From the NCBI GenBank assembly GCA_946614435.1, contig CAMOGW010000003.1, positions 1-64,000 of the forward strand: 64,000 nt of DNA, given 5' to 3'. The notes below the pieces were generated by a model. The model did no database searches. It was not told where the DNA came from and worked only from the letters and a program-made list of their open reading frames with translations. This document shows, piece after piece, positions 16,503-58,216 of this stretch (position 1 is its first letter; every line of letters begins with the position of its first letter). The position numbers and the translations under genes were made by a program. The stretch is from an uncultured Prevotella sp. (lineage in GTDB: Bacteria > Bacteroidota > Bacteroidia > Bacteroidales > Bacteroidaceae).

Positions 16503-18950
16503 ATGAAAACAAAAATGAAAAGAAAACTAATTAATTCATTGAGATTGCTCCTCGTAGCAGCATGGCTGTGCGTGGGGGCAAGTAATGCGTGGGCTGGTGA
16601 AATAACCTACAATTTCAACTCTTGGGTAAACACAAATCTTACTACCCTCGGACAACAGCAAACATTGTCAGTTGCGGGGGACAATATTGCAACTGCGGAT
16701 GCAACTAATGTTAAAGTAATTAGTGATGTTACCACCCCTGCATTCGCTTTCGATGGTCGATTCGCTACAGATGATGTCAGCAAAGTTTATTTGAGAAATG
16801 GTAGTAGCAAGAGTAACCAACATATTGTGAACAAAGGTATTCAGAGTAGAGCCGCAGATAAGCATTTTTCAATTCTTAATTTGAAAAGTGGAGATATTGT
16901 AACAATCGTTACCGGCTCTGGCACGACATCTTTTATATCAACAAATGCGACAGTGGGAGGAATTCAAGTTGTTAGCGGAGACAGGGTCGGTACAAACGTA
17001 GATAATACTGATGAAGGAGCTACAACAGTCTGCACAATGACTGCTGATGGCAATTTGGATTTGAAATTAGGAAGTTGGGCGGTAATAATGTCTGTAACAA
17101 TTAATAGTCCTAGCGTCACATTGCTAGACCAACCGTTTACACAATTGTATGAAGCAGATGGGGAAACGGAGATTACTGACGTGACACAGTATGGCTATAC
17201 TGTAGCCTCTGGTACCAACACTTCAGTGACAGGTGGTAAGCTGACATTTTCAGGAACGAGCAGCTCAGGAGTCTCTGCTGAAGTGTATTCATCGTTCACA
17301 GAGAAGTCATCTGGAATTATCAATGTCAGTTTCACTTGGGCAACGTCTAATATGACAGGTTTAAATGGCAAAACTGCTACAACAAGCAATTCTGCTTATA
17401 CAAGTTTTTATCTAGCAGACTCTGAAGGAAAAAAGATTTTGACCGTATACTTTTTTGGGCAATTGCAAAAGATTTTTGTAAACGGTCTTGCAGATGCAAA
17501 CTTATTGTATGCTGATAATACAGACCAAGTGGAGCGCGGTCAAACCATAGCAGTAACTGTTGACATAGACATGGACAACAAGGTGATTCAGTCCTTAAAG
17601 TTAGTAGGAAATCAAACACATAGTAGAACAAACTTCGCGTTCGAGAATTCATCTGCGACTTCTATTGCTAGATTCGGCTATAAGAACAAGAACTGTTCAT
17701 ATGTTAATATACCAACCATTGATGATATCCTTATAAAGAACTCAGTTCCAAACTATACTCTGAATGCTATTCTCTCTAATGGGACAAAGCTCAAGACTAT
17801 ATATCAGGGATGCAGTGATTTTGCTTCATCTCAAACTGTATACTTCCCTAAATATATTAATGTGAATAACACGTGGTATAAAACCTCTGAAACCTCATTC
17901 TCAAAAGCCTTCAGTACTGCAGGTACGCAGACCGTAACGTATGCTGCCGATGACGCAATTGACTATTTCTTTGAATTTGAGGAACTCCCCAAAAATGGCT
18001 CTTTTGCAGCAAATGTATCTGGAGCTACGGTTTCAAGTGGCATGTCTGGTCGCTTACATGGAAGCAGCAAACAAAAAGCTCGCGCTTGGACAGGTGCATT
18101 AGCTGGTGGAACGTATACTTTGATTTCTCATTGTAGGGGTGCAAACTCAAATTCAACTCTTCCTTTGTACTATTGCGATGTTGACGGCAGTAATCCTGTA
18201 TATATTGGCGAGGCTACAGCGTCTGCCAGTACAAGTAGCTTTTCTGAGCGAACTACTACCAATATTGTGATTCCAGAAGGAAAGGCATTGTGTTTCTACA
18301 ACAACACTACCAGTAACAGTAACCATTATGTAGACTATTTTACATTGACACGTAATGGCAATGCCACAGTCTCTGCCACCATCACATCTGCTGGTTTCGC
18401 AACAAACGTAAGCGCATACGCTCTTGACTTCACTTCTACCTCTATTAAGGCTTACAAGGTTAAGGTTAGCTCAAAGGGCGTGGCAACGCTGACAAAGGTT
18501 AATCAGGTTCCTGCAGGTACTCCAGTATTACTCTATAAGGATGGTGGTGCCACAGAGAATATCCCTGTAATTGCTAGTGCAGATGCCGTTTCAGACAACG
18601 ACCTTGTAGCTGGTACAGGCGATGCTGTTGCAACGACCGATGGCGGCTACACCAACATGATTCTGAACAACGTGGACAGCAAGATTGGCTTCTACTTCGC
18701 TAATGGTAAGATCGTAGCCTCGAACCGTGCTTATCTGCACATAGCCACTGGACTTGCTCCTGATGCAGAAGGCGGTAGCAGCAGCCGTATGGTGATGGCG
18801 TTTGCCGACGAGACAACAGGCATTACCAGCCTCACCCCCAGCCCCTCTCCAAAGGGCGAGGGGAGTGTGTACACTCTCAGCGGTCAGCGCGTGGAGAAGC
18901 CTGCAAAGGGACTCTACATCGTGAATGGAAAGAAAGTAATCATTAAATAA
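16503..18950 (+). CDS. Large secreted protein with C-terminal sorting-like motif
   Basis: Signal peptide LLLVAAWLCVGASNAWA; C-term VYTLSGQRVEKPAKGLYIVNGKKVIIK. Confidence 0.85.
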   Translation: MKTKMKRKLINSLRLLLVAAWLCVGASNAWAGEITYNFNSWVNTNLTTLGQQQTLSVAGDNIATADATNVKVISDVTTPAFAFDGRFATDDVSKVYLRNGSSKSNQHIVNKGIQSRAADKHFSILNLKSGDIVTIVTGSGTTSFISTNATVGGIQVVSGDRVGTNVDNTDEGATTVCTMTADGNLDLKLGSWAVIMSVTINSPSVTLLDQPFTQLYEADGETEITDVTQYGYTVASGTNTSVTGGKLTFSGTSSSGVSAEVYSSFTEKSSGIINVSFTWATSNMTGLNGKTATTSNSAYTSFYLADSEGKKILTVYFFGQLQKIFVNGLADANLLYADNTDQVERGQTIAVTVDIDMDNKVIQSLKLVGNQTHSRTNFAFENSSATSIARFGYKNKNCSYVNIPTIDDILIKNSVPNYTLNAILSNGTKLKTIYQGCSDFASSQTVYFPKYINVNNTWYKTSETSFSKAFSTAGTQTVTYAADDAIDYFFEFEELPKNGSFAANVSGATVSSGMSGRLHGSSKQKARAWTGALAGGTYTLISHCRGANSNSTLPLYYCDVDGSNPVYIGEATASASTSSFSERTTTNIVIPEGKALCFYNNTTSNSNHYVDYFTLTRNGNATVSATITSAGFATNVSAYALDFTSTSIKAYKVKVSSKGVATLTKVNQVPAGTPVLLYKDGGATENIPVIASADAVSDNDLVAGTGDAVATTDGGYTNMILNNVDSKIGFYFANGKIVASNRAYLHIATGLAPDAEGGSSSRMVMAFADETTGITSLTPSPSPKGEGSVYTLSGQRVEKPAKGLYIVNGKKVIIK
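18842..18863. repeat. REP-like palindrome in frame within the secreted protein gene
   Basis: cccctctcc-aaag-ggcgagggg, encodes part of LTPSPSPKGEG linker. Confidence 0.6.
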
Positions 18951-18973: not shown

Positions 18974-19132
18974 ATGAAAAAGCAATATAAGAACCCTGAA
19001 ATAACGGTAATCAAGATGCAGGTAACACATCTTTGTGAACCATCAATACAGACTTATGGTAAAAATGCAGATAGTGCCGCTATGGGCCGTAGTGGCGGTA
19101 GCATTTGGGACGATGAAGACGAGGAGTATTAA
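18974..19132 (+). CDS. Small 52-aa protein paired with upstream secreted protein (unannotated in ORF track)
   Basis: MKKQYKNPEITVIKMQVTHLCEPSIQTYGKNADSAAMGRSGGSIWDDEDEEY; starts 24 bp after upstream stop; similar in layout to 54829-54993. Confidence 0.75.
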   Translation: MKKQYKNPEITVIKMQVTHLCEPSIQTYGKNADSAAMGRSGGSIWDDEDEEY

Positions 19133-19201
19133 TCACGTCTGAAGTCTATAATCTTTTGTCTAAAGTCTAAAGTCAAGAGACTATAGTCTAAACGATAGAA
19201 A

Positions 19202-19253
19202 CAGCCGTGTAGTCTTCTCCGTGAGGACATGGGTTGCACGGCTGCATTTTTTT
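19202..19253 (+). terminator. Rho-independent terminator after the secreted protein/small ORF unit
   Basis: cagccgtg...cacggctg followed by a run of T. Confidence 0.85.
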
Positions 19254-19431
19254 AAAATTATAGTAATTTTTCATTTTTAGCGGCATTCTGCCTCTGCTCT
19301 CTTTGAGGAGTTGATTGCGAGGCAAGAAACGCTTCAGATGACGGAGAGACGAATGTCGGCTAATTGTTAGTTTAGCGGCTTAGCATGATTCGTGAGAACA
19401 GGTGCACCGCAGTAAATAGTAGTGAAAAAAA

Positions 19432-54828: not shown

Positions 54829-54993
54829 TTAATCCTCATCGTCCCAGTAACCACCGTCACGAGAGTCGGCAGTACCACCACCAAAGGTACCTTGTCGAGT
54901 GATACCATCGGCACCTTGAACAGAAGCGATGTCGAGCAGAGACTCTGTTTTGATTTCGACAATCTTCAAGTTTGGTTTGATATAATCTTTCAT
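54829..54993 (-). CDS. Small 54-aa protein downstream of secreted protein (unannotated in ORF track)
   Basis: MKDYIKPNLKIVEIKTESLLDIASVQGADGITRQGTFGGGTADSRDGGYWDDED. Confidence 0.75.
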   Translation of the reverse strand: MKDYIKPNLKIVEIKTESLLDIASVQGADGITRQGTFGGGTADSRDGGYWDDED

Positions 54994-55024: not shown

Positions 55025-58000
55025 TTATTTCACAGTGATACGCTTTCCACCCACGATATAGATGCCCTTCTGCAGTCCGTTCAGGTTGTCGGCATTCTTG
55101 CGTACCAATTGTCCATTCAGGTTGTAGATATTGCCTACGGGCATTGTCCTCTCTCTGTTAAGACCTTCGATGGCAGTCGTCTCTTCATCATCAACAAGGA
55201 ATACAAGCGAACGAGAAGCGCCACCAACGTCTGCAATCTGGATATAGGCACGATAGGGATTGATGGTTGCGCCATTAGCACCAACATCATAGATACCGTT
55301 ATTGCTCAACACATAGTTATTTTGTGCATTAGTGATTTTTGTGCTATTGTATGCTCCTATGAGTGAAGCCTCGTTCTTTGTCACTGTTGGGGTCTCTGTC
55401 GTTGCAGACACAGCGATGTCACTGAGACTGATCTCGCTCTTGTCGGATGCTGAGCGCATGAGGAACGGCTGGTTGGCAACGCTTTGGTCAGCTGACTTGA
55501 AACCAATGCTACCTGTTTCTGCGTTGAAACTGTTCAGCACTGCGATGTTGTCAACACCGCTCACTGCGAAGGGATAGACAGCAGTTGCCCAGCGGCCTGC
55601 GGTCAGCGTGCGGGTAATCTTAACTGAAGGATAGGTGCCAGGGGCGTAAGTGGGAACAGAGCCGTCGGCAAACTCGAGAGCATCGGTAGATTTCAACAAG
55701 ATATTACCCATTACGAGTTGGCGTTGAATATTATTGCCCATGTTTTCACGTACAAAATTAATTATATAGTCTGCATCAGCATTAACAGTGAAATAGCCTT
55801 CATAGTCAGCCCAAACGCTTGCATTCGAATTTCCATTTACAGCATCTCCCGAAACCGTAAACGTGCCACTGATATTCAGCTGATTTTCACCATTCGCATC
55901 TGTAATGTTGATAGAAGTCTCTGATGGTTCTGTCCAACCTGCATATTTAAACGTTAGTTTATATGTACGGTTAGCTTTTAGAGGTAGAGTATATCCTTCT
56001 ACCTTACCGTAGTTTGTACTTTTCTTTGTAAAAAGAGCTACATTGTTCTCTACTGCACCAAGACCTGGATTTGCGTTGTCTCCATCATTGTTCTTTCCAT
56101 TAATATGATTAAACACACGAGTAGAATACATTGAACCTTCGGCATTGCCACTTAGTTCAGGATCATACCAACCATAAGCTTTAGACTTATCAGTAGTGCC
56201 CAAAGTAGAGTAATCCCAATAAATAGCATTCACCTCACCAACGTTCGCAGTCCAAGAAGCTGCTCCTAAAGCAGCGTATGCAGAAATCTTTTCATCGGTT
56301 GTTACGGCAGCATTTGCGGTGTTAAGTGCGCTTACAGCTGCAACATTGTTATATGGTGCATATTCACCATCCTCAAAGCCGATTGTATGGTTTTCGCCTT
56401 CAAAAATAGCAGAGGCAAGTGCTGTTTCTGGTTGAACAAACTGCCAAACGTTGTGCTCTGATGCAACTACATTATGCGATATTTCGACAAATCCAGTTGG
56501 AGTGTTGTTTACAAATAGCTCACAATTAGTATTTTGTTTCAATTTTATCTTGTATCCGCCTTCAACTGGAGTCAAGACCCAATCGTTGTTATGAGAACCT
56601 TCAATTTTTGTTGCCCAGTTGCTGCCTACATCATTAAGATAATTGCCCGAACTGAATTTCATTTGATTATAACCGCCACTCCATTCTAATGTAAATGGTA
56701 GCCCTTGATCATAGACATAGGTAACACCACTTTCATTCTTGTTCAGCCACTTTGTTACGCCATCAACTGTTGTAGTCAGATAGAACCTCATGTCTATCGT
56801 GACAGTCTGCTTTGCGGAAGACTTGATATAAAGCATTCCTGCTGACAAAGCAATGCTCTTTTGCTCACCAGCGGCAAAGCTTACAGCCGTACCCGTAGTA
56901 CTTTCGCCAGCAATTTTTGTACCATCTTGCGTATAAGTGATTGTAGCGGCTGAAGTTGAAGTGATATAATATTTTCCTGCTGTTGGAATGAAAACTGTGT
57001 ACCATGTGTTGGCTTCCATGTCAGAGCCAATAGGCAGAGCATCTGCTGCTATTGCTTGTAATTGTAAACCTGTGCATTTCAAAGAGAAGTCATTGAAGAT
57101 TGTCCAGTCGTTTCCGATACCAGCATCTTTCTTTATTCCTAATTCTATAGAGTTGCTAGACGTAAGATTAATATTGGAAAGGGTGTTTGCATATTTCCCG
57201 TCTGTAAAGATTGCATATTCTGCGGCAGCCATATTATCAGGAACGTAATATTTGGAATCAATACATTGCCACACGCCTGTTCCAGGATTGACAGTATAGG
57301 AAGTTATGCTGTTAATCAATGCAAGATCGACAGTATTATCATCTGCATATAACTGAACATTTTTTGTGTCTGCTGTGGTACCTTTATCCCCAGGACGGTA
57401 GAATCCTTTTACGCCTAATTCAAATAATCCATATTGTATGAGATTTACAGTTTGTTTAATACTAATTGTTGTGTAATTATAACATTCAAGGAGATTGTTT
57501 GAAAAATTAACAGCCTTGTATCCAGAATTGTCTGAATACTCTGTTGTCCAACCTGTAGCTGTTTTATCTATTATTTTAGCATGATCGATTAAGCCATTCA
57601 AGTTAACAGGAGAGCTTGAGGATGCATTTTTGAGATAGCTCGCTAAAAAAGAAGTACGTGAAATAGAGTAGATATAAAAGCCAGGGTTAGATCCAGTTGG
57701 TTTGTTGCAGGCAAGGTCTTGATCCCCAGTGACAGATGTTCCGCCATCCCAAGGCCCCACATAGTTACCATCACCAAATGTACCAGCAGATAGTGAATAC
57801 TTTCCTTCGCTTACTGTAAAAGTGAAATCCGCATTCATACCTTTTCCATATGACATTGTTCCATCCCACCCATTATTTCCTGCATTCAGATAGTATCCAT
57901 CTGATAGACATTTTAGAGAATAGACGTTTGCAGTTCCTGTTGTTTCAAGAACCCATACTTGCTCAGGGGTTGTTACTGGGTTGGAAAGTGCTCTATAAGC

Positions 58001-58216
58001 TGCTGGTCTGGTTGTTGTAGAATGACTCATTGCATATGTGCCAGCACCTGCATCAACAAAAACGTAAAAATTGTTAGCAGGTGTTCCAATGGCTTCTAAT
58101 GTGGTCAATTTTGTCCACCCTGCATTAGTCAAATCACTGACTGTGTATGCCCATGCGCTACTGCCCCCACCAATTAATATGACAAAGGTAGCCATTAATA
58201 GTTTAAATTTTCTCAT
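55025..58216 (-). CDS. Large secreted protein with C-terminal sorting-like motif
   Basis: Signal peptide LLMATFVILIGGGSSAWA; C-term IYNLNGQLVRKNADNLNGLQKGIYIVGGKRITVK. Confidence 0.85.
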   Translation of the reverse strand: MRKFKLLMATFVILIGGGSSAWAYTVSDLTNAGWTKLTTLEAIGTPANNFYVFVDAGAGTYAMSHSTTTRPAAYRALSNPVTTPEQVWVLETTGTANVYSLKCLSDGYYLNAGNNGWDGTMSYGKGMNADFTFTVSEGKYSLSAGTFGDGNYVGPWDGGTSVTGDQDLACNKPTGSNPGFYIYSISRTSFLASYLKNASSSSPVNLNGLIDHAKIIDKTATGWTTEYSDNSGYKAVNFSNNLLECYNYTTISIKQTVNLIQYGLFELGVKGFYRPGDKGTTADTKNVQLYADDNTVDLALINSITSYTVNPGTGVWQCIDSKYYVPDNMAAAEYAIFTDGKYANTLSNINLTSSNSIELGIKKDAGIGNDWTIFNDFSLKCTGLQLQAIAADALPIGSDMEANTWYTVFIPTAGKYYITSTSAATITYTQDGTKIAGESTTGTAVSFAAGEQKSIALSAGMLYIKSSAKQTVTIDMRFYLTTTVDGVTKWLNKNESGVTYVYDQGLPFTLEWSGGYNQMKFSSGNYLNDVGSNWATKIEGSHNNDWVLTPVEGGYKIKLKQNTNCELFVNNTPTGFVEISHNVVASEHNVWQFVQPETALASAIFEGENHTIGFEDGEYAPYNNVAAVSALNTANAAVTTDEKISAYAALGAASWTANVGEVNAIYWDYSTLGTTDKSKAYGWYDPELSGNAEGSMYSTRVFNHINGKNNDGDNANPGLGAVENNVALFTKKSTNYGKVEGYTLPLKANRTYKLTFKYAGWTEPSETSINITDANGENQLNISGTFTVSGDAVNGNSNASVWADYEGYFTVNADADYIINFVRENMGNNIQRQLVMGNILLKSTDALEFADGSVPTYAPGTYPSVKITRTLTAGRWATAVYPFAVSGVDNIAVLNSFNAETGSIGFKSADQSVANQPFLMRSASDKSEISLSDIAVSATTETPTVTKNEASLIGAYNSTKITNAQNNYVLSNNGIYDVGANGATINPYRAYIQIADVGGASRSLVFLVDDEETTAIEGLNRERTMPVGNIYNLNGQLVRKNADNLNGLQKGIYIVGGKRITVK

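Follow-up and report, generated by a model that had tools for sequence, protein, structure and literature searches.

A 52-amino acid (aa) open reading frame (ORF) of an uncultured Prevotella sp. probably encodes the precursor of a ribosomally synthesized and post-translationally modified peptide (RiPP) resembling the linear polyphosphorylated peptides (LPP; Popov et al. 2026), matured by a trans-acting pathway whose precursor genes are dispersed behind genes for cargo of type IX secretion (T9SS). This reading, drawn by analogy with LPP, starts from a 64,000-nucleotide stretch (assembly GCA_946614435.1, contig CAMOGW010000003.1, positions 1 to 64,000; hereafter the window) and extends to the rest of the source genome, to other genomes of the genus and to distant families of the order. 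Features of the window are listed by position and strand, with their basis in parentheses.

16503–18950, +: 815-aa signal-peptide-bearing protein with a T9SS-like C-terminal tail, GQRVEKPAKGLYIVNGKKVIIK (sequence, tail profile)
18974–19132, +: small ORF, 52 aa, probable LPP-like RiPP precursor (sequence, family profile, selection)
18986–18997, +: YKNP, the YxxP leader motif, residues 5–8, proposed RRE-binding site (invariant Tyr/Pro in 34 aligned members; motif role from PMC13381572)
19043–19045, +: Ser24, 19 residues past the Tyr, proposed kinase target, with a putative leader cut just before it (by analogy with LPP)
19202–19254, +: intrinsic-terminator-like hairpin and T run, 3′ of the small ORF (folding)
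54829–54993, −: second family member, 54 aa (sequence, BLASTP, profile)
54922–54924, −: Ser24 of the second member, 20 residues past the Tyr (sequence)
54973–54984, −: YIKP, the YxxP leader motif of the second member, residues 4–7 (sequence)
55025–58216, −: 1,063-aa signal-peptide-bearing protein with a T9SS-like tail, GLQKGIYIVGGKRITVK (sequence, tail profile)

The small ORF and its family

The initial annotation had placed the 52-aa ORF behind an 815-aa gene, exactly where we find it: its ATG, with AAGGAG approximately 14 nt upstream, follows the stop codon of that gene after 23 nt. The strong terminator proposed to come next is likewise supported, as positions 19195–19262 fold at −23.9 kcal/mol (z = −4.6; 0 of 200 shuffles equally stable) with a T run after the fold; the hairpin is absent from a simple terminator scan because its stem is imperfect. 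Searches of Pfam, NCBIfam and PHROGs with the ORF returned no match. Between the ORF and a close paralogue (C3:142351), 19.5 synonymous differences fall on 28.8 sites and 17.5 non-synonymous differences on 127.2 sites (pS 0.68, pN 0.14; dS 1.74, dN 0.15), and this mostly synonymous divergence indicates a real gene whose frame is apparently translated under purifying selection.

A second ORF had been proposed as a relative of the first, and apart from its strand, which we correct to minus, the proposal stands: the ORF is real and similar, and begins 31 nt after the 1,063-aa gene, which is of the secreted type. The two small proteins share 28% identity (pairwise BLASTP, E = 4e-5), a likeness beyond chance that is reinforced by the recovery of further members by profile, the 56% complete source genome holding 12 family copies (11–12 by profile search). 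Copies also occur in most of the genus genomes examined, and the family, one of probable peptide precursors, is large and reaches beyond Prevotella to other Bacteroidales.

Members have a leader, MKKxYxxP...[LI][LM]xxS, followed by a middle part that varies and, often, by an acidic WDDE tail. An alignment of 34 members shows no variation at the Tyr and Pro of YxxP and many C-termini with acidic W-D-D-E runs, yet the conserved part of the family is the YxxP-to-Ser leader and not the tail. The Gly-rich, acidic C-terminus pointed out in the initial annotation is common in the family without defining it. The comparative evidence gives good support to that annotation's idea of a peptide precursor that starts with a leader, and assigns the leader to the YxxP/RRE type; in the lasso, PQQ and LPP pathways, discrete RREs bind leaders at this YxxP motif (PMC13381572). 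We also considered a leader of the double-glycine (C39) type and abandoned it, the Gly before the Ser not being conserved. The Ser itself lies 18–21 residues past the Tyr in 122 of 129 non-redundant members (+19 in 53%, +20 in 41%), an upper estimate given that members were collected by a profile containing that column. It stands at +19 or +20 in all 12 source-genome copies, and nine precursors in or near the distant clusters described below have Ser at +18 or +20 (eight) or Thr at +20 (one).

Placement behind cargo-type genes

Exactly two genes of the window carry a T9SS-like tail, and both are followed by a family-type small ORF. Genome-wide, such a gene precedes 11 of the 12 copies, an arrangement with a chance of approximately 2e-17 under random placement (42 tail matches, gene total of 1,700 assumed), and counting in reverse finds a small ORF at 9 of the top 10 and 11 of the best 30 tail-bearing loci. 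The tail model accepts the upstream gene at 38 of 63 further genus loci, with approximately 12 more recognized by eye as bearing other tail types, and at 17 of 30 loci in a later genus set; in some pairs the small ORF and the upstream gene overlap by 4 nt. Adjacency to secreted proteins with C-terminal motifs, as anticipated from the window, holds strongly in Prevotella and extends to several distant families. The one source-genome copy without a tailed neighbour (L009, C6:78435–78596) follows a signal-peptide-bearing gene ending in dockerin-like repeats, and the YxxP ORF of locus L018 similarly lies behind a gene with dockerin-like repeats at its end, not a T9SS-like tail.

From their tails we infer that the upstream genes of the window encode T9SS cargo: the tail is type A-like, fits a common tail profile and is weakly recognized by Por_Secre_tail (PF18962, E 0.09), a model whose matches are clear in cargo of the distant families. 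Cargo domains give no sharp rule for the presence of a small ORF, since cargo with one carries InlB/Ig-like repeats or nothing, and cargo lacking one includes pectinesterase and leucine-rich-repeat proteins.

So tight an adjacency, with its short spacing and occasional 4-nt overlaps, is also what one would expect if the small protein stayed unmodified and served the upstream cargo as its dedicated helper, perhaps as an escort whose acidic end binds the basic C-terminal tail opposite it and maintains export competence, comparable to SprF/PorP with type B cargo. We nevertheless judge a helper of this kind unlikely: conservation resides in the YxxP-to-Ser leader rather than in the acidic end, the small ORF accompanies 11 of those best 30 tail-bearing loci, members occur beside other genes and in genomes without SprA, and in distant families the small ORF sits inside an RRE–kinase–peptidase cluster.

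SprA was not found in the source genome (56% complete), whereas 20 of 21 other genus genomes contain it. Genomes that lack SprA also carry the family and its maturation genes, the kinase among them, and precursors lie beside capsule-export genes, so T9SS is not required; the original suggestion of a secretion partner is not demonstrated, and we no longer regard T9SS as a necessary partner. Nor is the tie to T9SS cargo obligatory. In genus g27 (L051/L321, L167, L171, L176), YxxP ORFs lie behind capsule tyrosine-kinase-like genes ending in Gly-Tyr repeats; G262, a genome of this genus, is without SprA.

A kinase, a signal peptidase and an RRE

The source genome encodes an HprK/PEPCK-fold kinase, an archaeal-type signal peptidase I and a PqqD-type RRE, each once and unlinked to the precursors. 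As judged from sequence and predicted fold, the three are the LPP core set. The RRE, usually in one copy, is found in most genus genomes including the source genome, and in most genus loci inspected it adjoins the peptidase and a protein of approximately 300 aa, beside a primary-sigma-factor-like gene. It matches PF05402 (PqqD, E 2.8e-18), its solved relative is the lasso RRE TfuB1 and its best NCBIfam matches are lasso PqqD models. The peptidase matches TIGR02228 (archaeal signal peptidase I, E 9e-7), and its alignment (A6) has an invariant Ser (SMRP), His (HRI) and Asp (GDGN). The approximately 300-aa third protein has a P-loop and matches TIGR04352 HprK_rel_A (E 7e-4); solved relatives of this kinase, not found by sequence alone, emerged from its predicted fold (pLDDT 94.8), which resembles those of PEP carboxykinases and HPr kinases.

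The peptidase is present at 79 of 80 named Prevotellaceae loci and the order kinase–peptidase–RRE at 73. None of the 80 has a precursor within 8 kb of the machinery (model A2), which fits dispersal of the precursor genes, and no ABC exporter or NTP transferase adjoins the Prevotella enzyme set at the genus loci inspected. Several genus loci (L195:9069–9524, L196:8762–9181, L198:8819–9388 and others) encode, between the sigma-factor gene and the kinase, a conserved signal-peptide-bearing protein of 140–190 aa with the motif FGFxASFNDSTVYFTDIQ, for which searches found no family.

The YxxP motif and PqqD-type RRE are common to lasso and PQQ pathways, and this, together with the lasso models that best match the genus RRE, would also accommodate a different RRE-dependent RiPP whose peptides are lasso-like or otherwise modified, the kinase merely decorating them. 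We hold this to be quite improbable, as the peptidase is of the signal-peptidase type, no penultimate Thr precedes the core, and neither a macrolactam cyclase nor a B2 peptidase was noticed among the cluster neighbours.

Co-occurrence and clustering in distant families

Of 295 genomes surveyed in the order, 43 have the kinase, 20 have YxxP ORFs (E up to 0.01) and 18 have both (Fisher p = 4e-15, indicative only, as genomes related by descent overstate independence). In distant families precursor and enzymes are physically linked: two loci (L316, L317) have the order RRE–YxxP–kinase–peptidase, and six others (L318, L319, L320, L328, L330, L340) hold the YxxP ORF inside the cluster in variant orders. 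At L316 the kinase matches Hpr_kinase_C (E 6e-7) and the peptidase exceeds the cut-off of TIGR02228, and some distant clusters, L318 and L320 among them, additionally carry an NTP_transf_5 protein (E 6e-40) and an MsbA-like ABC transporter. A Por_Secre_tail cargo gene stands directly upstream of the cluster RRE at L316, L317, L331, L332 and L340, with weaker cases at L330 and L342; clusters that start right after such a gene show that the tie to T9SS cargo is not confined to Prevotella.

Two further observations concern the clusters themselves. The peptidase matches of L326, L327, L336 and L342 lie in ORFs of approximately 750–800 aa whose ends resemble ABC transporter ATPases, a hint of peptidase–exporter fusions, and kinase/RRE clusters at L319, L333 and L338 adjoin a tsaD-like gene.

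That precursors and enzymes are unlinked in this genus, and that a few genomes carry one without the other, would be expected if the resemblance to LPP were coincidental, the YxxP ORFs being an unrelated small-protein family and the enzyme set serving other substrates. Prevotella sp. P5-108 (G374, L251) keeps the kinase without an adjoining peptidase or RRE, yet has four YxxP precursors; G001 (79% complete) has 20 precursors and no PqqD was found in it; neither precursors nor PqqD were found in G020; and two genomes (G299, G219) give weak precursor matches without a kinase. Against coincidence stand the 18 genomes with both components and the fact that, in several distant families, the cluster repeatedly includes a YxxP ORF, and we consider it very unlikely. 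Still further down, a spurious, untranslated ORF would agree with the empty database searches but is a negligible prospect, as the protein is under purifying selection and has dozens of conserved relatives that share its setting.

Proposed pathway and significance

Under the LPP-like reading, the YxxP leader would be bound by the stand-alone PqqD-type RRE, the conserved Ser would be phosphorylated by the HprK-like kinase, and the signal-peptidase-type enzyme would cleave the leader just before that Ser. One RRE–peptidase–kinase set, beside its primary-sigma-factor-like gene, would thereby serve a dozen or more scattered precursors, most of them positioned 3′ of a T9SS cargo gene, which would allow joint production of peptide and cargo. 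The peptide would then be exported and may act together with the cargo at the cell surface. More tentatively, and with this step less probable than not by some way, each modified peptide might work with its own T9SS cargo there, perhaps as the cargo's dedicated anchor, acceptor or ligand, with the two produced in step. If true, Bacteroidota would link a protein secreted by the type IX route with a peptide that is its genetic partner, is modified by a kinase and depends on one shared enzyme set.

Such a pathway would place phosphopeptide RiPPs, so far described from Bacillota, in Prevotella and other Bacteroidales, would assign a function class to many of their unannotated small proteins, and would show RiPP precursors spread over a chromosome and tied to the cargo of a secretion system. 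It makes two questions testable: the role of LPP-type peptides, and the reason for the small partner gene found with some T9SS cargo genes.

Comparison with known systems

We found no published description of this arrangement in the main texts of open-access papers, and a 2023 survey of Bacteroidales RiPP clusters, searched by key term, mentions neither signal peptidase nor T9SS (PMC10352776). T9SS type B cargo with SprF/PorP likewise pairs a cargo gene with a dedicated neighbour; there the partner is an outer-membrane barrel, in contrast to the leader-bearing peptide and the type A-like cargo tail of the present loci. The HPr-rel-A system (NCBIfam TIGR04352 HprK_rel_A, TIGR04353 PqqD_rel_X) also joins an HprK-related kinase to a PqqD-type protein, although scores here fall far below the curated cut-offs. 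Lasso pathways of the paeninodin type share a YxxP/WxxP leader, a discrete PqqD-type RRE and an HprK-like kinase, but use a B2 cysteine peptidase where a signal-peptidase-like enzyme occurs here; this peptidase and the macrolactam cyclase were not noticed among the cluster neighbours inspected, and the penultimate leader Thr is absent from the family consensus.

The closest counterpart is LPP, which is stated to be restricted to Bacillota and in which a kinase phosphorylates a Ser at +18 from the Tyr and a signal-peptidase-like enzyme removes the leader, with the RRE presenting the precursor (PMC13381572). The systems differ in several respects. The full LPP leader consensus, YxxPxVLxHQxIxFETxxS (PMC13381572), is matched here only in YxxP, in the hydrophobic alternation and in the Ser (at +19/+20, not +18), and the residues around the predicted cut differ; the loci found here belong to Bacteroidota, not Bacillota; and the Prevotella precursors are many and dispersed behind T9SS cargo genes, their enzymes having no neighbouring exporter or NTP transferase, whereas distant families (L316–L320, L328, L330, L340) have an in-cluster precursor. 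Because of the leader consensus, the restriction to Bacillota and, in this genus, the lack of an in-cluster precursor, we do not file the system as a strict member of LPP. The likeness is nonetheless extensive: both have a discrete RRE, an archaeal/SipW-type signal peptidase with Ser-His-Asp and an HprK-like kinase, both have precursors with a YxxP leader, a variable C-terminus and a Ser approximately 18–20 residues past the Tyr, and some distant-family clusters add an NTP transferase and an MsbA-like ABC transporter, with capsule loci in some members. On these sequences and the predicted fold, the system would appear to work like LPP.
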